Part shown: one piece after another, positions 793 to 13,969 of the stretch
How positions within the stretch are numbered: the first letter of the stretch is position 1
Layout of the letters: each line of letters starts with the position of its first letter
Virus record (IMG/VR): IMGVR_UViG_3300048037_000092
Coordinates: 1 to 22,906 of that record
DNA from: a virus
DNA: 22,906 nt
Strand: one strand, 5' to 3'
Notes under the pieces: generated by a model
Seen by the model: the letters and a program-made list of their open reading frames with translations, nothing else
Told to the model about the DNA's origin: nothing
Database searches by the model: none
Position numbers and translations under genes: made by a program

Positions 793-3700
793 ATGCCTCA
801 AAAGACGAACCTAAACGTAAGCCCATATTACGAAGATTTTGATGCGAAAAAGAATTTTTATAAGATTCTATTTCGTCCTGGTTATTCTATACAAGGAAGA
901 GAACTAACACAGGTTCAATCAATTCTTCAGAATCAAGTCGAAAGCTTTGGAAAGTACGCCTTCAAGCAAGGTGAACTTGTAATTCCTGGTGAAGTAGGAC
1001 TTAACACAAAATTAGATTACGTAAAATTATCATCTGTTTCAGAAGTTGCAGTAAACGATGGTAGCAACAATATTGTTTATAAAAAATATGATATATCCCA
1101 ATTAGTTGGTCAAGAACTTATTGGGTTAACTTCTGGTGTCAAGGGAAGAATAGTTTCTACGAAACTAGCAACAGAAAGCACAGCAGATACTTTGTTTGTA
1201 AATTACGTCAACAGTGGTTCGTCTAACACTGAGACTACTTTTAGACAAGGTGAGACTCTAGAGGTAGTTGATGGCGTTAATACTCCTTTACTCGTTGTAG
1301 GCACAGATGGTAGTGTTTTACCTACTAGTATTCAAATTACAAATCCAGATACTAATGAAACAACTTCATTAGAAAGTCCTGCTATGGGATTTGGTTCTGC
1401 TGTTAAAGTAGAAGAAGGTATTTACTTTGTTAATGGTTATTTTGTTCGTTGTGATGCAGAACTTTTAGTTATTGATGAATATTATAATGAACCATCTGCT
1501 AAAGTTGGTTTTACAATTAAAGAAGAAATTATAACTCCAGAAGAAGATGCATCTCTATATGATAATGCAATAGGATCATCTAACTACACTGCACCTGGTG
1601 GTCATAGATTAAAAATATCTTTAGTATTAAAAGAATTTGCTCTTAACGCAATTACTGATAAGAATTTTATACAACTTCTTACAGTATCAAGAGGAGTAAT
1701 TCAAAGAAAAGTAGAATCTACAGATTTTAGTGTACTAGAACAGACTCTTGCTCGTAGAACATTCGATGAGTCTGGAGACTATGTTGTAGATAACTTTTCC
1801 GTAGACGTTAGAGAGTGGGCACAGAAAGACGGTAACAGAGGTTTGTATGCTGTAGATGCATTTGGTCTATACAATGGATATACAGCAACTGAGTCCTCTA
1901 GGAAGATGGTTGCGAGTATAGGTCCAGGTAAGGCATATATTAAAGGATATGAGATTGTCAATAAAGAGACTAAGTATCTTGAGATTAATAAGGCAAGAGA
2001 AAGTCTTTCTACTGACAATGTAAATTTAAAATCTAAAGGTCTTCCATCTTTCAGTGTTACTAATGTATACGGTAGTGTACCTTTAAACAAAGAAGGATCT
2101 GATCTAACTGCATATCCAGATGTATTCTTATACAATACATTCAATGATGGTTCTGTTGGATTAAACAATACAGAACTATCTTCAGATCATAGACAAACTA
2201 TTAGTAGAAGGGGAATTAATTTTTCTGCTGATGATGGTATTAAAACTATCACTTTACAAATAACAAACACAACTACACTTATCGGTGCTGTAACTGATGC
2301 AACATTTCAAAGTCAATTTGGAACTCTCTATTATATTAAAACAAGAAGTGATCTTGGTACTCCAACAGCAATTGGTTCTTTTAAAACATTATCTTTTGCT
2401 ACTACTAATAAACCACTTATCAATGCATCAACATCTGTACAGTTTTTAGAACTAACAGTATTCGGTCCTAAGAATGAATTAGAATCTCTATTATTAGAGT
2501 ATGATTTATCTGATACTGAATTTAAGAGAAAGATTTTCTTAACAGAAGCAAATGCACAAACAAACTCAGGAGATCAGTTTGGATTTATAGTAGATTATTC
2601 TCCTACTATTACTCCTGTAATTGGTAAAGCAAAACCCAATAACTTCTTCTTAAAGCAAAGAGGTTCTGGATTTAATTCAGATTCAGATATAGTTATTTCT
2701 AGAGGTCGTCTTGCAGCAGGAACTACAGCATATAATACAACATTTGGATTATCATATTTTGATCCACAATTTTTTACTAAAATTATACTAGAGTCAGTGC
2801 CTACTGGAACTGGTGCATTTGATGAAGGTAAATATGTTTTTGGTATTAATAGTGGTGCTTATGGTGTTGTAGAAGGAACTGCATCAGGTGTTTATAGTAC
2901 AGGTGTACTATTATTTGTAAAAACTCTATCAGGAAGATTTCTACCTGGTGAATCAATAAGAGATGAGAGTGGTGTAACTGTAAAAATTGCAAAAGAAAAT
3001 ACAATATCACATTTTGTAATTCAGAATAGAGGACTTGGTTATGCAGATGGTGCTACTTTATTAATTAATGGATTAGAATTTGATAGTTCTAAAATAGAAC
3101 TTTTAAGAACTACAGATGGTAAAATTTATAAAGCATCTGTTACTAATAGATCTGCTGTAGGAATTGAGTATGCTCAACCTCCTGCAGTAACAGTACAAAA
3201 TCCTAGTGGTGCTACTGCTCCTAATGCTGCTGCTGGTATTGTCCCAGTTTTGTATAGAGATACAGTAACTACATATACACCACAAAATGTCAAATCTGTA
3301 GGTTGTTCTTATGGATCTGGTAATGCAAATACTTTTTCTGCAGACGTTGTTGTAGATAGTCAAAAGTATTCAGAAATTAAAACTGTAACTGACTACACAT
3401 TTTTTGGTTCTCAAGGTTCTACATTTATAGAATCAACAAGTTTTAGTGCAGATGCTTCCACTGCTGTACAACAAGGAGATCTTATACAATTTTCTGATGA
3501 TGCTAATAATCTTGTTAGAGCAATTGTTCAATTTGCTACACAACAAGAAGGATCATATAAATCTAGAATTTACTTAGATACAGCTTTACCAGGTTCAGTT
3601 ACTAATGCTAGTATTGTAAGATTACGTCCTATAGTGGATAATGCTGCGAGTGGCACATTACTTTATTCTACTGGTAGTAAGCAAGTATCTCAAATTTCTG

Positions 3701-6700
3701 CTGGTGGAGATGATACTAAAATTAAATATTACTTCCGTAGAGATTTTGTAACTACTGCAACTACTGGTGGTGGTACAATTACATTTGCTGCACAGTTACC
3801 ATTTGGTACACAAAGATTTGCTGCATTTTCTGAAGAAAATTATATTATTACTGTATTAGATCCTGGTGATGCACCTGATATTATAAAAGGTGATGTAATT
3901 TATGTACCAGAAGATGTTGTAGATATTTCATCTGCTACAGATACTGCTAGTGGTTTAACATCTGGTAGTATTAGTTTACAACTAGCATCAACATATTTTG
4001 GAACCATACCAACAAATGGTGCTTATCCTAAACTCAAGTTGACTGCTACTCTAGAAGTATCTAATGCAAAACCAAGACTTAAGACTGTAGTAAAAAACAA
4101 AAGAATCACAGTTACATCTGCTGGAGATCGTGTAGTGCCATTAAGAGGTACTGATTACGATACAGAAGTTGTGGAGATACTCTCATATGCTGATGCATAT
4201 AAGTTAAACTACATTTACGAAGGAACATCATCACAACCTCCTGAGATTGATACTGCTGGTAATATAATTTCTGGTACTGATGTAACATCAAGATATACGT
4301 TTGATGATGGACAGAGAGATACAATATATGATGTCTCAAGAATAGTTTTAAAACCTGGTTTTGAAGAAACTACAGGTCAACTTGTAATATCTTTTGATTA
4401 CTTTGAACATTCCCAAGGAGACTTTTGTACTATTGATAGTTACTTACATGAGGCAGGAGTTTCTGAAGATGAGATACCTACATTTGATTCATCTGTTCTT
4501 GGTATTACAGAACTTAAAAATGTAATTGACTTTAGACCAAAAGTTGATAGCACTACTATTATACCAGGTTTTCTTGATACATCTACTTTAGAGAGAACAG
4601 AAGGATCTTTCTCTGGTGCTGGTGCTATTGTTTCAAGTAGTCCTGCTCCTGATAAGAATTTAGAATATACATTCTCATTCAGTCAAGTTCAATATTTAGA
4701 TCGCATTGATGGTATTTTCTTAGATAAGAAAGGTAGTTTTGTGGTTAATGAGGGTAATTCATCTCTCAACCCAACCAAACCAGATATGATAGAAGATGCA
4801 GTACCATTATTTTATGCTTATGTCCCTGCATTTACTAAAACAAGTAAAGATGTAAGAATAACACCTGTAGACAATCGTCGTTATACAATGCGTGACATTG
4901 GTAAATTAGAAAAACGTATTGAGAGATTAGAATACTACACTACACTCAGCATCCTAGAACAACAAGCACTCAACATGCAAGTTAAGGATGAGATTGGTCT
5001 TGATAGATTTAAGTCTGGTTTTGTTGTTGATAACTTTGAAGCACATAAAGTTGGTAATCTTAAATCACTTGATTATCGTTGTGCTATTGATGCTCAACAA
5101 TCAGTATTACGTCCACAGTCTAAAGAAGATTCTATAGATTTAGTAGAAGTTAATACAAGAGAAGATCAAAGAGCAGTTTCTGGTTATAAAAAATCTGGAA
5201 ACATGGTAACATTACCATATTCACCACTTTCATTGTTAGGAAATAGTTTTGCTTCTTCTACATTAAATCCAAATCCATTTGTTGTATTACAATATGTTGG
5301 TGATAGTGATGTTTCTCCATCAATAGATCAGTGGTATGATTCAAGTATAGAACCAGTTGTTGTAGATACAAATACAGATTTATTCAATATTTTCTTAGCG
5401 AAAGAGAGTGTAAAAGAAAGTTTCTCTAGTTTACACAATTCATTTGTGATTAACTGGGTGGGTGCATCTTCTTCCTTTACTGCTATTAATTCTCTTGGTG
5501 GAGTTAATTCACAAATTGCTAATACATCTGTACAGAATGCATCTGTTGGTAGTTCTTCTAATATCAGTCCTCAGAATAATGAAGTTGGTAAAGGATTACA
5601 AACAAAAACTGTAGGGGATAATATTGTTTCTACATCTCTATCATTTTTTGCAAGAAGCATACCTATTAAATTTAAGGTTGGTAGAATGAAACCTAACACA
5701 AGAATCTATGTATTCTTGGAAGGTAGAGATATTAGTCGTTGGGTTAACCCTGATCTTAGATACACTGGTATTGCAGGAAACTCATTATCAGCATTTAATG
5801 GTCCTATTACTACAGATGAATATGGTAATGCTAGTGGTTTAATTATTTTACCAGCAGGATCACCTCCTAATGAGAATGCTGTATGGGGTGGAGATATTGA
5901 TACTGTTGGTTATGACGCATCAGCAGAGGCATTGAACTTTACTGTTGGAACTCTTACATTTAGATTTACTTCTAGTTCTGCTAATGCACAAAAATCAACT
6001 GTAGATTCCTATACAGAAGTTAAGTACTATGCTACTGGTATTTTACCAGAAAATCCTTCTAGTATTGTTTCTACAAAACCATCTATATTTAAATCTAATG
6101 AAGGTGTTCAGTTAATTGAAAGTAATACTGATAATCCTGTAAGACCTAATCCTCTTGCACAAACATTTAAAGTAGAAAATCTTGATGGTGGTTGTTTTAT
6201 AACAGGTGTTGATTTATATTTTAATAAGAAAAGTTCTACAATTCCTGTTAAAACATACATTACAAATGTGGATGCTGAAAAACCAGCAAAAAATATTGTA
6301 CCTGGTAGTGAAAAAACATTAACACCAAATACTTTCCTTAAATGTTTTGCTAGTGGTAACATGGCAATTTATAAGAATGAAAATGTTACTGGTGCATCTT
6401 CTGCTGCATCTGGTCCTATACTCAAAGTATTTGATAAAAATAATGTAGAACTAGTTGCTACTGCATCTGGTAAGTATAGTCTCACAAACGAACAAGTTTA
6501 CACTGTTGTTCTTAGTAATCATAATGGTAAATCATTTATACCAAATGAAGATTTGGTTATTCCATCTGTAACTCTTGCAAATGCAACAGATGCAACAGAT
6601 TTTGTTCTTTCTATTGCTAAAGATAGTGGTAAATTATCTGATATTAAAATTACAAATACTGGTCTTAACTATGACAGTGCAATTTTAACAATAGAAAGTC

Positions 6701-8895
6701 CACAGTTACCTGGCGGATCTACTGCTACAGCAAGCATAGAAGTTTCTGGTGGTAAGATTTATAATGCTGAAGTAGCACTTAGTGGATTTGGATATACAGA
6801 AGCACCAGCTGTTGTTGTAAAAGGCGTTGGAAATGGTGCTGGAGGGTGTGAAATACAAACCTTTATAGAAATAGATACACCAGCAGTTAGGATGGGCGTA
6901 GCGGTTGATACAGAGGGTGTTACACAATCAACAACTCCTACACATTTTGGATTTGATTATCCAGTATATTTACAAAATGATACTGAGTACGCTCTTATAG
7001 TAGAGACAGATTCTATTGATTATGAATTGTGGTCATCTAAATTAGGAGAAACTGATATAGCAACAAGTACGGTTATTACAACACAACCATCATTAGGTTC
7101 GGTTTACCGATCACAAAATACTGAAAGTTGGACTGAAGATATATTTGAAGATCTTAAATTTACATTATATCGTGCAGAATTTAATATTAGTAGACCAGCA
7201 GAATTGTTGATTAAGAATGATAATTTAGGTTATGAATTAGTAGGTAACAATCCATTTGAAACTAATGCAAGTGCAAATACAAATTCTACTTCTAAATTAT
7301 TCAAAAATAATAACACTATTATTAAAGTAAATCATAGAGATCATGGTTTTGAGGATAGCGGAAATTCATATGTATTCTATAGAACTGCTACTGAAATTGG
7401 TGGTATTACAACATCAATATTAAACACCACATTATTCCAAATATCTAACTCTGGTGTTGACACATATAATATTAAATCAAGTTCACAGGCAGCTGGTAAT
7501 TCTATCGGTGGTGGAAGTAATGTTTATGCTTCATTTAATAGAAAATATGAAACTCTATATCCACAAGTATCATACTTATCATTTACTGGAACATCTTTAA
7601 ATACACAAGTTAAAACAACTAATGTAGTACCTATAGATTCTACATCTACAAATTATAATTCTTATTCAGAAGCAAGTTATGAGAAAACATTCTTAAATGA
7701 AGCACATTACTTTACTAATCAGAAGTTTATTGCCTCTAGTATTAATGAAACTTTAAATAGTATTTCTCAATCTCTAGTTTATAAAATGGCATTATCGTCT
7801 ACTGTTTCTCATTTGAGTCCAGCAATAGATTTGTCAAGTGCTACTGTAAAAACAGTATCTAATAGAATTGAAAATGCAAGTGGTCAAGAAGATAGATTTG
7901 GTAGAAGAGATCAGGTTGTTGAGTTTTATCCTGTTTATCAATTCAATCTTGCTGGTAATGGTGGAACTCAATTACAAGCAGATCAAACAATAAAGGGATT
8001 AACTACTAAAACAACTGGTACTATTGCTAGAGTTAATGGTCAGGTTGTATATGTTAGGGTTAAAACAAGTCAATTCTTTAAAAAAGGAGAGACAGTAACA
8101 TTAGGAAATCAATTAGGTCTTAATGCTGTTACAGTTGACTCAAATCCATCACAAGTATTTGCTACTATCGCTGAGGCATCTACTATTGTTGCACGTAATC
8201 CAAACGTATTAAATGAAACATATGATAATGTAATTACTGGTAAAACAACTATTTGGAATACTCAAACTCAACAATTAACATTGAGAGTTGATACTAATCC
8301 TATCAATGATAGTTTTACAGATAGAATTATAGACAATGTTCTTTATAACAGAAATGCAGTTACTGCAAATCAACTTGCTGATATATTTCGTGTAGGAGAC
8401 TTTATCAAATATCCAAACCAACCAGATGAAGAGAATTCATATCTAGAAGTTGGAAAAGTAACATATACAAATGGTTTAGACTTTGTTGCTGAAGATACAT
8501 CTAAAAACGGTTCTGCTATTGCTAAGTATGTAACTAAAGAAGTTACTATTACAAATCCAGCAACTGCTATTGATGTACATTTATTAGCAAATGTTAGAGA
8601 TATTAATGATCTTACAGTATTCTTTAAGTACAAGAAAGCATCAAGTCAAGAAAACTTTGAGGATATTGATTGGATATACTTTAATACATCAGGAGAACCA
8701 GATGTATTTGAAATTGCAACAAGCGAGAATACAATTTCTGGAATAGTAGAAAAACAATCTTCTTATCAAGATTTAAAATACAGTGTTTCTGATCTTCCAG
8801 AATACTCATCATTTGCGATTAAAATTGTGATGACTGGTACTGATCCTTCTTATGTTCCTAAGGTTCAAGATATACGAGCAGTTGCTGCGTTCTAA
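793..8895 (+). CDS. Giant DUF4815-type virion structural (baseplate/tail) protein, 2700 residues
   Basis: This matches, by recalled features, the DUF4815-containing structural proteins of T4-like cyanophages, thought to belong to the baseplate or proximal fibre. The N-terminus (residues 17-60) has the family pattern NFYKILFRPGYSIQGRELTQ followed by VQSILQNQVE and GKYAFKQGE. A predicted helical segment near residues 1367-1400 (RDIGKLEKRIERLEYYTTLS) is another hallmark. So are MKPNTRIYVFLEGRDIS (about 1632-1648), NPLAQTF (1786-1792), YPVYLQNDTEYALIVE (about 2057) and the C-terminus VPKVQDIRAVAAF. Small beta modules decorate the core: a VGQELIGLTSGVKGRI type near residue 105, and GxGY types near residues 743-826 and 1953-2025. 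The latter seems to interrupt a conserved beta domain. The start is supported by GGAG at 785-788 and a late-promoter-like motif. The next gene begins nine bases after the stop. I see no enzyme motif or signal peptide. Biochemical role unknown. Confidence 0.85.
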   Translation: MPQKTNLNVSPYYEDFDAKKNFYKILFRPGYSIQGRELTQVQSILQNQVESFGKYAFKQGELVIPGEVGLNTKLDYVKLSSVSEVAVNDGSNNIVYKKYDISQLVGQELIGLTSGVKGRIVSTKLATESTADTLFVNYVNSGSSNTETTFRQGETLEVVDGVNTPLLVVGTDGSVLPTSIQITNPDTNETTSLESPAMGFGSAVKVEEGIYFVNGYFVRCDAELLVIDEYYNEPSAKVGFTIKEEIITPEEDASLYDNAIGSSNYTAPGGHRLKISLVLKEFALNAITDKNFIQLLTVSRGVIQRKVESTDFSVLEQTLARRTFDESGDYVVDNFSVDVREWAQKDGNRGLYAVDAFGLYNGYTATESSRKMVASIGPGKAYIKGYEIVNKETKYLEINKARESLSTDNVNLKSKGLPSFSVTNVYGSVPLNKEGSDLTAYPDVFLYNTFNDGSVGLNNTELSSDHRQTISRRGINFSADDGIKTITLQITNTTTLIGAVTDATFQSQFGTLYYIKTRSDLGTPTAIGSFKTLSFATTNKPLINASTSVQFLELTVFGPKNELESLLLEYDLSDTEFKRKIFLTEANAQTNSGDQFGFIVDYSPTITPVIGKAKPNNFFLKQRGSGFNSDSDIVISRGRLAAGTTAYNTTFGLSYFDPQFFTKIILESVPTGTGAFDEGKYVFGINSGAYGVVEGTASGVYSTGVLLFVKTLSGRFLPGESIRDESGVTVKIAKENTISHFVIQNRGLGYADGATLLINGLEFDSSKIELLRTTDGKIYKASVTNRSAVGIEYAQPPAVTVQNPSGATAPNAAAGIVPVLYRDTVTTYTPQNVKSVGCSYGSGNANTFSADVVVDSQKYSEIKTVTDYTFFGSQGSTFIESTSFSADASTAVQQGDLIQFSDDANNLVRAIVQFATQQEGSYKSRIYLDTALPGSVTNASIVRLRPIVDNAASGTLLYSTGSKQVSQISAGGDDTKIKYYFRRDFVTTATTGGGTITFAAQLPFGTQRFAAFSEENYIITVLDPGDAPDIIKGDVIYVPEDVVDISSATDTASGLTSGSISLQLASTYFGTIPTNGAYPKLKLTATLEVSNAKPRLKTVVKNKRITVTSAGDRVVPLRGTDYDTEVVEILSYADAYKLNYIYEGTSSQPPEIDTAGNIISGTDVTSRYTFDDGQRDTIYDVSRIVLKPGFEETTGQLVISFDYFEHSQGDFCTIDSYLHEAGVSEDEIPTFDSSVLGITELKNVIDFRPKVDSTTIIPGFLDTSTLERTEGSFSGAGAIVSSSPAPDKNLEYTFSFSQVQYLDRIDGIFLDKKGSFVVNEGNSSLNPTKPDMIEDAVPLFYAYVPAFTKTSKDVRITPVDNRRYTMRDIGKLEKRIERLEYYTTLSILEQQALNMQVKDEIGLDRFKSGFVVDNFEAHKVGNLKSLDYRCAIDAQQSVLRPQSKEDSIDLVEVNTREDQRAVSGYKKSGNMVTLPYSPLSLLGNSFASSTLNPNPFVVLQYVGDSDVSPSIDQWYDSSIEPVVVDTNTDLFNIFLAKESVKESFSSLHNSFVINWVGASSSFTAINSLGGVNSQIANTSVQNASVGSSSNISPQNNEVGKGLQTKTVGDNIVSTSLSFFARSIPIKFKVGRMKPNTRIYVFLEGRDISRWVNPDLRYTGIAGNSLSAFNGPITTDEYGNASGLIILPAGSPPNENAVWGGDIDTVGYDASAEALNFTVGTLTFRFTSSSANAQKSTVDSYTEVKYYATGILPENPSSIVSTKPSIFKSNEGVQLIESNTDNPVRPNPLAQTFKVENLDGGCFITGVDLYFNKKSSTIPVKTYITNVDAEKPAKNIVPGSEKTLTPNTFLKCFASGNMAIYKNENVTGASSAASGPILKVFDKNNVELVATASGKYSLTNEQVYTVVLSNHNGKSFIPNEDLVIPSVTLANATDATDFVLSIAKDSGKLSDIKITNTGLNYDSAILTIESPQLPGGSTATASIEVSGGKIYNAEVALSGFGYTEAPAVVVKGVGNGAGGCEIQTFIEIDTPAVRMGVAVDTEGVTQSTTPTHFGFDYPVYLQNDTEYALIVETDSIDYELWSSKLGETDIATSTVITTQPSLGSVYRSQNTESWTEDIFEDLKFTLYRAEFNISRPAELLIKNDNLGYELVGNNPFETNASANTNSTSKLFKNNNTIIKVNHRDHGFEDSGNSYVFYRTATEIGGITTSILNTTLFQISNSGVDTYNIKSSSQAAGNSIGGGSNVYASFNRKYETLYPQVSYLSFTGTSLNTQVKTTNVVPIDSTSTNYNSYSEASYEKTFLNEAHYFTNQKFIASSINETLNSISQSLVYKMALSSTVSHLSPAIDLSSATVKTVSNRIENASGQEDRFGRRDQVVEFYPVYQFNLAGNGGTQLQADQTIKGLTTKTTGTIARVNGQVVYVRVKTSQFFKKGETVTLGNQLGLNAVTVDSNPSQVFATIAEASTIVARNPNVLNETYDNVITGKTTIWNTQTQQLTLRVDTNPINDSFTDRIIDNVLYNRNAVTANQLADIFRVGDFIKYPNQPDEENSYLEVGKVTYTNGLDFVAEDTSKNGSAIAKYVTKEVTITNPATAIDVHLLANVRDINDLTVFFKYKKASSQENFEDIDWIYFNTSGEPDVFEIATSENTISGIVEKQSSYQDLKYSVSDLPEYSSFAIKIVMTGTDPSYVPKVQDIRAVAAF

Positions 8896-8904
8896 TTTCC
8901 GCAC

Positions 8905-9111
8905 ATGGATTTTGTAAAAGTGTCTGGACATGATGGTCTTGTAAGAGATCAAAACACTGGTGCCATCATCAGTTTGGACAATTCTGCAATGGAAGCTAGA
9001 CGTAAAGCAAAAAATCTAAATTCCGCATTGAATGACATAAATACATTGAAGAATGAAGTTTCTGAGATTAAATCTTTACTTAGAGAGTTAATAAAAAATG
9101 CCAGCAATTAG
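8905..9111 (+). CDS. Small conserved coiled-coil protein, 68 residues
   Basis: The short N-terminal part contains HDGLVRDQNTGAIISLDNSA. From about residue 29 to the end a helix with heptad-like hydrophobics follows (LNSALNDINTLKNEV, then SEIKSLLRELIKN), so a coiled coil is likely. I recall similar 60-80-residue proteins (pattern LVRD..TGAII, ending EIKSLL..L) scattered among the structural genes of cyanomyoviruses, where they are annotated as hypothetical. No Shine-Dalgarno is visible in the nine bases between the upstream stop and this ATG, so translation is probably coupled to the DUF4815 gene. Its own end overlaps the next gene by 14 bases, which again suggests coupling. It may be a small virion component or an assembly factor for the flanking giant proteins; this is inference from position only. 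Confidence 0.75.
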   Translation: MDFVKVSGHDGLVRDQNTGAIISLDNSAMEARRKAKNLNSALNDINTLKNEVSEIKSLLRELIKNASN

Positions 9112-12100
9112 TGTAGCCAGAACGGACACCTTTGAGAAACAAAGGGAAAAAATTAATGAGATTAGTACTCAGATTTTTACTATCTCTCAGGGTGGTAGTG
9201 ATTTATCTACAGGTATCTTAAGATTGGGTGATGGTCTCATTGGAAATCCTTCTTTAGGATTTACTAATGAAACTGCTCTTGGTTTCTTCAGACCAGTAGA
9301 AAAAACAGTAAGGTGGGTATCTTCTGGAAAAAAATTATTAGACATAGCAGAAGATGCTGTAAGATTTTATAAAAACTCGGATTTTGTTAAACAAGAATTA
9401 ATTCAATCTGGATTAACATTCACTTCTACTGGAACTGGATATGAAGGAGGAGCATATACAAATATAGATTTAGTTGGTGGTACTGGAACTGGTGGTACAA
9501 TAGATCTTGTCGTAACAGGATTTACTGGAACTACTACAAATACAGGAGCTGGTTATCTACCTGGTGCATATACATCTATTCCTCTTATTGTTAACACTGG
9601 ATCTGGATCAGGTGCAGTTGCTGATATTACAGTTGATGGATTACAAGGAGATATTACTAACGCTGGTAATGGTTACAAACCAGGCAATTACACTGCAGTT
9701 CCATTAACTGGAGGTACTGGGTCAAGTGCTACTGCTGATATAGAAATACAAGGTGGGACAACTGGAACTGGTAGTATTACAACACCAGGATCTAGTTATG
9801 AGAATGGAACTTATGAAGATATTACAGTCTACAACCAAGCAGCACAAACATTTGTTGTAACTGTAACTGGTTCTGGTCCTTATCAATATGTAATTGATGG
9901 TTCATCTCAACCAACACTAACACTTAATAAAGGAAATACATACAAGTTTGATTTATCAGATTCTAGTAATGCAACTCATGTTTTTAACATTACAAATGCT
10001 ACAGGAAATTTAGATCCTACTGAATATTATTTTGTAAAAGTAGGAAATGATGGAAGTGCTGGTGCTTTTGGATATCTTGTAGTAAAACCATCTGCATCAA
10101 CAGCAATCACATATGAATGTACCTCTCATGCTGGTATGGGAGGTAATTTTACCTTAGCAACAGGAGGTACTGGTTTATATGGAGTTGGTTTTGCAGCAGA
10201 TTTCACAGTTGCTGGTGGTGCTATAACTGCATTTACTCTTAAGGATGGATTCTCAAGTCCAGTCGATTACAACACAAATGATGTATTAGAAGTATCTCCA
10301 CTTATATTTGGATTTAACGGTACTGGTAGTGGTTTTACATATACAATTACTGGATTAGCATACACTGGAACAATATTTAATGTGAATGTTATAGATATAG
10401 GTTCTGGTTATGTTTTTGGAGATCCTTTATCAGCATCAGATTCAAATTTAGGTGGTGCTGGTGGTGCTAACTTTTTATACACAGTTAATACATATCCTCA
10501 AATCATTACAGATGAAAAGATTACATTTTCTGATAAAGGAACTGGTTATGCTGCTGGAGAAATACTTTCTTTACCTGGTACTACAACAGGTGTTAATGCA
10601 ACTTTAAATGGTCAGGTTACCGACATTACTGCTACTCTTGGAACTGGAACATCAGTAACAGTTTCTGATACTACTGGAATTGTTGCAGGAATGGTAATTT
10701 CTGTACAAGCTGGTGGTGTTGGTTCATTCCCATTTTCTCCTGATACCACGGTTGTTAATGTTATTAACGCAACCACTATTGTTGTAAGTCAAGCACCAGA
10801 TGCTGCTGGTGCTGCTACATTAGACTTTAATAGTCCTAATCCTGCAACTGATATTGTTTTGAGTAGTGTAGTGGGTATTGTACCTAACTCAGTTGTTACA
10901 AAAACTGGAGGAACAGGAGTTTTAGCAGCAGACACAACAGTTAATAGTATTTCAGCAGACACTAATACAATAACACTGAATAACCCTGCAACGACTGCAG
11001 GACCAGTAACTTTAACATTTACACCTCCTTACGGATCTCCTACCACTGATTTTGCCTATACTATAAATGCAGTTGGTGTTGTTGAAAGTTTTTTAGTAAA
11101 CAATGCAGGATTGTCTTATAGTGTAGGTGATACTCTTAGTGTTTCACCATTTGATATAGTTCAACCAACAACTTTTTTAGTTACTTCTGTTCAAATAACT
11201 AGAATTGATATTACAGGAACCGTAGCAACATCAGCATTTCAAGTTGGAGACACTATAACATCAACTGGCGGTGGTTTTGGTGGATCTGAAACTGTTAATG
11301 TTTTACAAGTTTTTTCTACTGGTTCTACTATTGATTACATTATCGTAGAATCTTCATCTTTAACTGCTGGCGATGCATTTGATAATGACAGAACATCTAC
11401 AGGATATACTGCTAATACAGTAGACAATGAAGGTAGATTTAAAATTGGTGGTGATTTTCCTGTAAATCAAACAATTTACTCAGGAGACACTTATATCTTT
11501 GACATTTCCGATTCTTCAATGAGTGGAAAAGGATTCAAATTATCTGCATACAGAGATGGTATACATTCTCCATCAAAGATAAGTACAAGTTCATCTTTTA
11601 CAGATGGAAGTGCTGTTGTAACAATGGCATCTACAACAGGAATACTTGTTGGGATGGACATTACAATTACAGATTTTACATCTACTGTTGTAGTACCAGC
11701 CGATACTACAGTTCAATCTATTGATGGTGCTGGTCAAATTACTTTAACCAACGCTGTTACTAATTCTGGAAATGGGGTTGCTACAGATTTTGTTGGAAAA
11801 GAATTTACAGATGGTATTGAGTCATCTTCAACACAGGTAAAATTAAAAGTAACTGATACAACTCCAACTTTATACATTTATGGTACAGAAGAAAATGCTG
11901 GAGGATTTGATAATGATGAGTGGACATTAACATCAAATACAAATAATCCAAGAGTATTTGGTAGTGGATTCTTGATAACTGTTGATAGTATCTCTAGTTC
12001 ATCAGTTATAACCTCTAATTTAGCAACTGGTGCTTTTGGGGCAACAACTTTGACTGCTACAGATGTAAATGCCACAAACTTAACACTTGGAACAAACGGA

Positions 12101-13969
12101 GTTGTAACTGCACCCACAGTTAATGCTACTGCTATTACAGCAGAAACTATCACATCTGCTGCTGGATTAGCAATTTCTGCTACTAGCGGTGTAAACTTTT
12201 TATCTGATGTTACATTTGTTGATTCAAATGTAGCAACTCAAATATTAATAGAAAAACAAACTGGAAAAATTACTGCTAAAGGTGATATAAAAACTGAAGC
12301 TTCATTTAACAGTAATGATGCTCTTACAATTAGTAATAATACGATTGCAAGTGCAGCAAACACAAACATAGTGTTAGCACCATCTACAGGATCTACAGTC
12401 ACAATCACTTCCACTGGATCACTTGTCATTCCTGCAGGAGATAATGCAAATAGACCGACTGATGCTGCAAAAGGAAAAGCAGACGGTGCTATCAGATATA
12501 ATACTCAAACATTACAATACGAGGGTTATAGTGGTAGTTCTTCATCATGGTCTTCTCTAGGTGGTGTAAGAGACTTAGATGGAAACACTTATATGTTGGC
12601 AGAAGAAACTATAGGTGCTAACGATAACAACTTATGGTTTATTAACGATAACGTCAATACATTAAGAGTATCACCTTTCCATCTTGAATTTGTAAATATG
12701 AAAAAGATACGTTCCGTAAACGTATCTGCTCCTGCATATGTAAATTGGAATGCTAATACTCCTGTAACTGTAGGTCAATATTTAAAATGGAAGAATAATT
12801 TATACGAAGTAACAGGTGCTGGTACTACTGCTACAAGTGGTAGTGAACCAACACATACAAGTGGTGCATTAGTAAATGGTACTGCAACATTAACATATTC
12901 ACAAATAGCAGTTGCACCTCTCACATTTGAGGATATTGAAGAATTAAGAATAGGTCCTACAGGAGGTTTGCCATTAGTTATTAATGGTGATTTAAGATTA
13001 GCAACTAATATTCTTTCTACTGATATTAATGATTTAGTATTACAACCTAATACTGGTAAAAAAGTAAATATTAATTCTGTTACATCTCTTGTAGTTCCTA
13101 ATGGAACAACTGCTCAAAGAGGAACTGCAGAACAAGGTTCTGTTAGATTCAACACAACTGATAGTTTATTTGAAGGATATGATGGGTCTAACTGGGGATC
13201 TCTTGGTGGAGTTAAAGACGTAGATCAGAACACATATATTATTCCAGAATTATCTGCTGGATCAAACGAAAATATATTATACTTCTATAACGATGGAGCT
13301 AATTCATTACAGTTAACTAAAACTGCATTAGATTTCTATGCTGTAGATACAATCAGATCTCAAACAAGTAATCAATTTGAGATTACTGCAAACTTAATGA
13401 CATTCAATAATGCAGATACTACGTTTGATAATACAGCAGCAGATAAGACCTTCCTACATACTTCAAAACAGTATTTTGATCTTGGTGTTTCTACAGGTGT
13501 ATATGTAGATCCTATTCTTAGATTAGATGATCAGGGTGATGTATATTTGAATACTGGTTTTGGAACTGGAAATTATAATGGAGTTAAGGTCTTTGATGGA
13601 GATCTAAAAGAGTTTGAATTAGCTGATATTAAAATTCTATCTGAAGTTATAACACTTATAAAAGGTTCTTCTAACAGTGGAGGATCTAATATTTACACTA
13701 CTTCTACTGCAAAAGGAGCAAAAGTAGTTGTTGTCGCAGAAGACATTGTAACAAATGAAAAAGAATTTATTGAGTTTGGTGTCACAGATGATGGAACAGA
13801 TGTGTTCCACACTGAATATGGCAACTTAAGGACTGATTATCAATTAATTGTTCCTACATTTGAATACACTGCTACTAATGAAGCAAGGTTAAATATAACA
13901 TTAGGAGCAAATGTTCCTGCTACTAACTCAGTGAAAATTACTTTCTCATCAACAATTACTAAGAAATAA
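9098..13969 (+). CDS. Modular fibre-like virion protein with cupredoxin-like domains, 1623 residues
   Basis: A Gly/Thr/Ser/Asn-rich beta-modular protein, probably a baseplate-attached fibre. Residues 1-100 form a helical/mixed N-terminal domain (MPAISVARTDTFEKQREKI), probably the anchor. Residues 110-240 hold four GxGY repeats about 38-41 residues apart. Residues 250-353 look like a cupredoxin fold, with His294, Cys341, His344 and Met347 as candidate copper ligands. GxGY-type and 'TTGI..GM' beta modules follow (about 508-641). Residues 778-946 resemble a second cupredoxin without ligands, interrupted at about 829-900 by another 'TTGI' module. Residues about 1108-1420 contain a duplicated 'RYNT...EGY...W.SLGGV.D.D.NTY' module, with a carbohydrate-binding-like insert near 1214-1272. 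The gene overlaps the small coiled-coil gene by 14 bases; a weak AGAGAG lies upstream of ATG 9098. It ends two bases before the next gene. Function is inferred from architecture. Confidence 0.75.
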   Translation: MPAISVARTDTFEKQREKINEISTQIFTISQGGSDLSTGILRLGDGLIGNPSLGFTNETALGFFRPVEKTVRWVSSGKKLLDIAEDAVRFYKNSDFVKQELIQSGLTFTSTGTGYEGGAYTNIDLVGGTGTGGTIDLVVTGFTGTTTNTGAGYLPGAYTSIPLIVNTGSGSGAVADITVDGLQGDITNAGNGYKPGNYTAVPLTGGTGSSATADIEIQGGTTGTGSITTPGSSYENGTYEDITVYNQAAQTFVVTVTGSGPYQYVIDGSSQPTLTLNKGNTYKFDLSDSSNATHVFNITNATGNLDPTEYYFVKVGNDGSAGAFGYLVVKPSASTAITYECTSHAGMGGNFTLATGGTGLYGVGFAADFTVAGGAITAFTLKDGFSSPVDYNTNDVLEVSPLIFGFNGTGSGFTYTITGLAYTGTIFNVNVIDIGSGYVFGDPLSASDSNLGGAGGANFLYTVNTYPQIITDEKITFSDKGTGYAAGEILSLPGTTTGVNATLNGQVTDITATLGTGTSVTVSDTTGIVAGMVISVQAGGVGSFPFSPDTTVVNVINATTIVVSQAPDAAGAATLDFNSPNPATDIVLSSVVGIVPNSVVTKTGGTGVLAADTTVNSISADTNTITLNNPATTAGPVTLTFTPPYGSPTTDFAYTINAVGVVESFLVNNAGLSYSVGDTLSVSPFDIVQPTTFLVTSVQITRIDITGTVATSAFQVGDTITSTGGGFGGSETVNVLQVFSTGSTIDYIIVESSSLTAGDAFDNDRTSTGYTANTVDNEGRFKIGGDFPVNQTIYSGDTYIFDISDSSMSGKGFKLSAYRDGIHSPSKISTSSSFTDGSAVVTMASTTGILVGMDITITDFTSTVVVPADTTVQSIDGAGQITLTNAVTNSGNGVATDFVGKEFTDGIESSSTQVKLKVTDTTPTLYIYGTEENAGGFDNDEWTLTSNTNNPRVFGSGFLITVDSISSSSVITSNLATGAFGATTLTATDVNATNLTLGTNGVVTAPTVNATAITAETITSAAGLAISATSGVNFLSDVTFVDSNVATQILIEKQTGKITAKGDIKTEASFNSNDALTISNNTIASAANTNIVLAPSTGSTVTITSTGSLVIPAGDNANRPTDAAKGKADGAIRYNTQTLQYEGYSGSSSSWSSLGGVRDLDGNTYMLAEETIGANDNNLWFINDNVNTLRVSPFHLEFVNMKKIRSVNVSAPAYVNWNANTPVTVGQYLKWKNNLYEVTGAGTTATSGSEPTHTSGALVNGTATLTYSQIAVAPLTFEDIEELRIGPTGGLPLVINGDLRLATNILSTDINDLVLQPNTGKKVNINSVTSLVVPNGTTAQRGTAEQGSVRFNTTDSLFEGYDGSNWGSLGGVKDVDQNTYIIPELSAGSNENILYFYNDGANSLQLTKTALDFYAVDTIRSQTSNQFEITANLMTFNNADTTFDNTAADKTFLHTSKQYFDLGVSTGVYVDPILRLDDQGDVYLNTGFGTGNYNGVKVFDGDLKEFELADIKILSEVITLIKGSSNSGGSNIYTTSTAKGAKVVVVAEDIVTNEKEFIEFGVTDDGTDVFHTEYGNLRTDYQLIVPTFEYTATNEARLNITLGANVPATNSVKITFSSTITKK
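9428..9838 (+). repeat. Four tandem GxGY protein repeats
   Basis: Within the 1623-residue protein the motif GTGYEGGAYTNIDL recurs as GAGYLPGAYTSIPL, GNGYKPGNYTAVPL and GSSYENGTYEDITV. The G-Y pairs start at bases 9437, 9551, 9671 and 9794, giving periods of 38, 40 and 41 residues. Each of the first three is followed by a GGTGTGG-like turn and a strand such as ADITV. Likely small beta repeats forming a rod or decorating a shaft. Confidence 0.7.
9845..10156 (+). other. Cupredoxin-like (type-1 copper) domain within the 1623-residue protein
   Basis: Residues 250-353 start with TFVVTVTGSG, then YVIDGSSQPTLTLNKGNTYK, FDLSDSSNATHVF and, at the end, YECTSHAGMGGNFTL. Candidate ligands are His294 (codon at 9977), Cys341 (10118), His344 (10127) and Met347 (10136). 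The C-x2-H-x2-M spacing equals that of amicyanin, and the His-to-Cys separation of 47 residues equals that of plastocyanin. The fold is inferred. Copper binding is not shown: phage versions may be structural only. Confidence 0.6.
10631..11020 (+). repeat. Two tandem 'TTGIvaGM' beta modules
   Basis: Copy 1 (about 10631-10828) has SVTVSDTTGIVAGM, then DTTVVNVINATTIVVSQAP and ATLDF. Copy 2 (about 10841-11020) has DIVLSSVVGIVPNSV, then DTTVNSISADTNTITLNNPA and VTLTF. The shared order is strand, GI turn, DTTV, strand with I/T-rich edge, P/A turn and a final TLxF strand. A third copy sits at about 11588-11790. Confidence 0.65.
11435..11932 (+). other. Degenerate second cupredoxin-like domain with an inserted beta module
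   Basis: Residues about 780-945 begin RFKIGGDFPVNQTIYSGDTY, then IFDISDSSMSGKGFKL. This parallels the first copy's YVIDGSSQPTLTLNKGNTYK and FDLSDSSNATHVF. The last strand reads PTLYIYGTEENAGG where copy 1 has ITYECTSHAGMGG, so Cys and both His are absent. Between the halves (about 11588-11790) is SAVVTMASTTGILVGM, then ADTTVQSIDGAGQITLTNAV: a third copy of the 'TTGI..GM' module inserted into the domain. Confidence 0.5.
12419..13360 (+). repeat. Internal duplication in the fibre-like protein
   Basis: Copy 1 (12419-12718) contains SLVIPAGDNANRPTDAAKG, IRYNTQTLQYEGY, WSSLGGVRDLDGNTYM and LWFINDNVNTLRV. Copy 2 (13085-13360) contains SLVVPNGTTAQRGTAEQG, VRFNTTDSLFEGYDGSNWGS, LGGVKDVDQNTYI and LYFYNDGANSLQL. 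The copies are clearly homologous but diverged. A carbohydrate-binding-like stretch (about 12737-12913) lies between them. Confidence 0.75.
12737..12913 (+). other. Carbohydrate-binding-like module in the fibre-like protein
   Basis: YVNWNANTPVTVGQYLKWKN, then NLYEVTGAGTTATSGSEPTH, TSGALVNGTATLTY. The pattern 'W..nt.v..G.y....NlYeV..aGTTg...PtHtsG...nGta.l.Y' is common in phage fibres and recalls the compact CBM5/12 (chitin-binding type) layout with aromatic residues. A related stretch is at about 15110-15265 in the giant downstream protein. Ligand binding is inference. Confidence 0.45.

Follow-up and report, generated by a model that had tools for sequence, protein, structure and literature searches.

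A divergent cupredoxin domain with a putative type-1 copper site in a virion structural protein of marine phages

Introduction

Type-1 copper is a mark of electron carriers and oxidases. In the plastocyanin/azurin family (PF00127; TIGR02656), whose members are small free carriers, a cupredoxin fold presents the ligands in the order His...Cys-x2-His...Met. Cyanophages encode a protein of this kind, the PetE plastocyanin (T4-GC 225), a cyanomyovirus-encoded cupredoxin that is the product of a free-standing metabolic gene (PMC3037559). The closest precedent for a phage tail protein with a metal site is provided by the iron-binding HxH sites in the tail fibres of T4 (gp37) and alterophage R22Y, which are octahedral, made of His only and located in fibre trimers; a part in host encounter and in marine metal pools, together with a Trojan-horse hypothesis, has been proposed for this iron (PMC11705849).

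The window analysed here is the whole of a 22,906-base viral fragment, whose closest annotated DNA is that of T4-like marine cyanophages such as S-WAM2; the virus is described here as a marine phage of cyanomyovirus-like type. One of its proteins contains a domain that shares the fold and ligand order of plastocyanin and azurin, and differs from them in being a module of a 1623-residue virion protein, in having a ligand loop (C-x2-H-x2-M) of amicyanin length and, across the phage family, in following the first His with Pro or Val (H-P or H-V) where theirs is followed by Asn (H-N). Unlike PetE, this putative copper domain is built into a structural protein, and, unlike the fibre iron sites, its candidate ligands are a Cys/His/His/Met set within a single chain. 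Open-licence PMC literature on phage or cyanophage cupredoxin, azurin or copper domains contained no account of it. Databases may nevertheless contain a superfamily annotation for it. The family described here consists of divergent cupredoxins that form modules of virion proteins and are in part split.

Results

The 1623-residue protein matches PHROGs family phrog_6005 (virion structural protein) with 1651 bits, and also phrog_32294 (baseplate wedge subunit), parts of the chain being baseplate-wedge-like (Table 1). Its cyanophage orthologues are annotated as virion structural proteins; relatives in Bellamy, P-SSM2, Melnitz and Mosig carry the label tail fiber. The fibre of the first-pass annotation is accordingly a candidate identity for this protein. 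The chain contains 7 His, 9 Met and one Cys; as Cys341 is the only one, a disulfide within the chain is ruled out.

Table 1. Coordinates of the virion protein, its two cupredoxin-fold domains, the candidate copper ligands and the upstream gene, numbered along the window
Feature	Position	Strand	Basis or conservation
DUF4815 protein, 2700 aa, upstream context	793-8895	+	PF16075 E 2e-45; phrog_358
Virion structural protein with both cupredoxin-fold domains	9098-13969	+	ORF, 1623 aa; phrog_6005, phrog_32294
Cupredoxin domain 1, residues 245-361, full type-1 copper ligand set	9830-10180	+	AF2, Foldseek, VIA, profile
His294, ligand 1 (NATHVF; GHPL in many relatives)	9977-9979	+	kept in 134/135 relatives
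Cys341, ligand 2, sole Cys	10118-10120	+	kept in 133/135 relatives
His344, ligand 3	10127-10129	+	kept in 133/135 relatives
Met347, axial ligand	10136-10138	+	kept in 133/135 relatives; Gln in one lineage
Cupredoxin domain 2, residues 761-964, no ligand kept in the window	11378-11989	+	profile E 4e-9; AF2; structure match
Phage module splitting the domain 2 sandwich	11576-11800	+	model residues 67-141 match 8eci

A cupredoxin fold had been proposed for the first of these domains in a first-pass annotation, and structure prediction agrees. The AlphaFold2 model of residues 245-361, built from 91 aligned sequences (pLDDT 93.8, pTM 0.86), is a nine-stranded cupredoxin sandwich whose top PDB matches are copper proteins: Foldseek places a three-domain nitrite reductase first (E 6e-5), followed by rusticyanin (1e-4) and then multicopper oxidases, with moderate TM-scores of 0.5-0.6, and VIA returns the N-terminal cupredoxin domain of 2dv6 (Z 9.1, rmsd 3.4, 101 residues). 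The closest PDB folds, this domain of the Hyphomicrobium denitrificans nitrite reductase and rusticyanin 1rcy, are a cellular enzyme domain and a respiratory carrier, respectively, with about 20% identity to the phage domain.

Translation of the reading frame confirms the positions previously assigned to His294, Cys341, His344 and Met347, and with them a His-Cys gap of 47 residues, as in plastocyanin, and the C-x2-H-x2-M loop; the claim of a full blue-copper ligand set thus stands, with His, Cys, His and axial Met in their canonical places and order. In the model, the first His occupies the loop preceding strand 52-55, the Cys ends strand 94-97, and the second His and the Met lie in the loop preceding strand 104-110. 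Along the modelled strands this is the plastocyanin layout, and from such places the four side chains would be expected to lie close together in space.

Relationship to known copper proteins emerges at the level of the family. Searched alone as a single sequence against Pfam, NCBIfam and the PDB, the window domain has no cupredoxin match; it falls below the PF00127 gathering score, no PF00127 match is found in the window, and the domain is therefore filed as a divergent cupredoxin rather than a plastocyanin. For the aligned family, hhalign against 17 plastocyanin/azurin-type proteins encoded by marine bacteria gives an E-value of 2.7e-6 with all four ligands aligned (reversed or shuffled alignments, E >= 0.09; phage rows alone, 1.2e-4), and in a profile search of the PDB plastocyanin ranks first (E 0.03). 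A profile made of phage sequences only recovers two bacterial proteins, L142 and L146, at 1e-17 and a Prochlorococcus protein, L163, at 5e-6, all three of which score above the cut-off of Pfam Copper-bind (PF00127). By these sequence comparisons, domain 1, with a profile match at 9842-10162 (E 7.8e-38), is assigned as a divergent member of the plastocyanin/azurin superfamily.

Homologues in which the ligands varied freely would have spoken against a metal site. Among 135 distinct relatives of the domain, 133 have the complete set, with a spacing of H-x(2,3,4,6)-M between second His and Met; of the two exceptions one is truncated, and in the other, the full-length L060, all four ligands are replaced together (E, S, N, I). 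The residues are hence near-invariant and lost as a set. Since some of the patterns used to fetch relatives included the first His, or the Cys and second His (the Met was in none), the count was repeated on 80 orthologous contigs fetched by ligand-free patterns from another domain: 61 have the full domain 1 motif, 5 have the domain without the full motif, and in 14 the domain is undetected. Four of the five appear to belong to a single lineage in which only the Met has changed, to Gln; read from sequence, domain 1 of L250/L256 retains His, Cys and His, with Gln in place of Met. Gln in place of Met is tolerated in type-1 sites such as stellacyanin, the axial ligand (Gln, Glu) being the variable one in type-1 copper proteins. 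The S-WAM2 orthologue lacks domain 1 and contains not a single Cys, and a search of the S-WAM2 genome for the domain yielded just two weak, ligand-poor matches; phages can therefore live without the site, which is dispensable.

The domain was found by tblastn in 50 phage records, and in more with other queries; these are cyanophages, Pelagibacter (SAR11) phages, Methylophilales phages and a few unassigned marine viruses. At least 507 IMG/VR stretches encode relatives; an IMG/VR search with the single window protein gave no match, and a 21-row alignment was too diverse for pattern searching. Contigs of marine bacterial and archaeal genome assemblies, some of them phage-like, hold 47 further relatives. 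P-SSM2 alone has four copies with complete ligands, one of which (L192, P-SSM2 25550-25834) is an intact His/Cys/His/Met domain within a collagen-like protein of GPTGPTG repeats.

The same chain contains a second cupredoxin sandwich, and this one is split. Its model (AF2 pLDDT 87) matches copper proteins with Z 7.8 over 94 residues that span model residues 4-193, and the module inserted into it superposes on the Arthrobacter phage Bridgette protein 8eci (Z 9.3, rmsd 1.7, 67 residues). A module similar to this insert (STTGI..GM..V) matches residues 505-579 of the 1623-residue ORF. In the window, domain 2 has Lys at the place of the first His and a LYIYGTEENAGG loop, with no ligands left. Across 77 distinct orthologous copies, the first His is found in all 48 that have the Cys and in 10 of the 29 that do not. 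The Cys-His loops of domain 2 copies are often longer (L054, L061, L096, L200 and others), and many copies have Glu at the axial Met place (HENEGG, HEDEGG), possibly an unusual copper ligand set.

Between the two domains, the site appears to alternate. Of the 12 orthologues that lack domain 1 or have it in altered form, 8 show a canonical C-x2-H-x2-M in domain 2; of the 69 with domain 1 intact, a set partly selected by the route of fetching, 2 do. None of the 81 is without a site in both. S-WAM2, described above, departs from this pattern. A phylogeny-corrected test of ligand coupling found 2-4 independent pairs on supported branches, all tied or in the expected direction, and was underpowered and non-significant. 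Complementarity of the two domains, as seen in the sequences, is thus strong as a pattern and leaves coupled evolution unproven, because the intact set is partly selected and the independent supported pairs number only 2-4.

Discussion

Taken together, these data make it likely that residues 245-361 hold a selected type-1 copper site. That a metal site is under selection is supported by ligands that are near-invariant, lost in concert and complementary with those of domain 2; judged by the ligand pattern, its metal is very probably type-1 copper. We infer that domain 1 binds copper, and marine phage particles with the domain probably carry it.

Two alternatives, each improbable, would retain the domain without the copper. 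In one, the site holds another metal (Zn or Fe), or a mixture, in a purely structural capacity. Zn can occupy cupredoxin sites, as in recombinant azurin, and the collagen-like repeat protein of P-SSM2 is a structural setting; against this, an invariant Cys and two His with a variable axial residue (Met, Gln or Glu) are the pattern of type-1 copper, and the closest structural neighbours are copper proteins. In the other, an inherited cupredoxin scaffold serves as an Ig-like adhesion module in a metal-free virion, its ligands being kept for folding. Domain 2 is ligand-free in the window and in many orthologues, so the virion can use the fold without metal, which favours this alternative; by the same token, domain 2 keeps its fold without ligands, which are therefore not needed for folding, yet all four are maintained in nearly every domain 1 relative, ligands disappear together, and orthologues that have lost domain 1 tend to have the canonical site in domain 2.

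Type-1 copper sites are usually electron carriers, and the first-pass annotation suggested that the domain might mimic a host electron-transfer partner at the cell surface. This usual job, and the separate petE plastocyanin gene of cyanophages (PMC3037559), would lend some weight to an electron-transfer domain imitating, for instance, plastocyanin. The suggestion nonetheless finds no support and is more doubtful than either of the foregoing: occurrence of the domain in SAR11 and Methylophilales phages is evidence against plastocyanin mimicry, and rules it out in the form tied to photosynthetic hosts; plastocyanin acts in the thylakoid lumen, beyond the reach of a tail; and a site found in either of two domains is unlike a fixed docking surface. 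Nor is petE supported as the direct source of the domain, since it is a separate gene and the virion family is both divergent and widely distributed. Coincidence as the origin of the Cys, His and Met pattern in a beta-rich repeat protein, for which nothing speaks except the low Pfam scores of the window domain alone, is refuted by conservation across hundreds of phages, with about 2.4e-5 C-x2-H-x2-M triplets expected per protein at this composition.

As for the role of a copper site, the likeliest, put forward tentatively, is that the metal holds together a beta-sandwich module in the tail or baseplate, or joins in a metal-dependent contact with the host envelope. Domain 1 would be made in the apo form in the host cytoplasm and would acquire its copper once the cell has lysed, with seawater or the cell envelope as the source. 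One site per chain is usual and the domain that bears it varies, so that carrying the metal may matter more than its exact place; such variation would therefore fit stabilisation or display better than docking of a redox partner. By analogy with the proposal for iron in phage tails, copper might instead act as a lure for uptake receptors, which seems unlikely; less probable still is a part in redox sensing or electron transfer. A broader version, as doubtful as the lure itself, would have marine phages display tail copper either as an uptake-receptor lure or as a redox trigger of infection that responds to the reducing envelope of the host, their particles making up a distinct pool of oceanic copper ligands.

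Should the site indeed hold copper, type-1 copper would belong to the structural make-up of abundant ocean phages, with selection keeping the site in one or the other of a protein's two domains, and would be a second metal beside iron for the biology of phage tails. Adsorption by widespread marine viruses could then be probed through it, and phages might prove to be linked with marine copper. The paired domains, one keeping and one losing its ligands, and one of them split by an insert, constitute a natural experiment in cupredoxin evolution.

Relatives of the family also occur outside phage records. Proteins of SAR86, Woeseiaceae and other Gammaproteobacteria (L130, L136, L139, L142, L144, L146 and L148) share a lipobox-like beginning and a CGGGGG run and carry the domain mostly at the C terminus; L130 is a single-domain protein of 161 residues. 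The Prochlorococcus relative L163, a free-standing protein of 148 residues from a single-cell genome, appears from its sequence to stand between classical cupredoxins and the phage family. In BFVD, the fold is matched by A0A481Z7Q7 and A0A481YVH3, small "beta-sandwich proteins" of pithovirus- and marseillevirus-like giant viruses.
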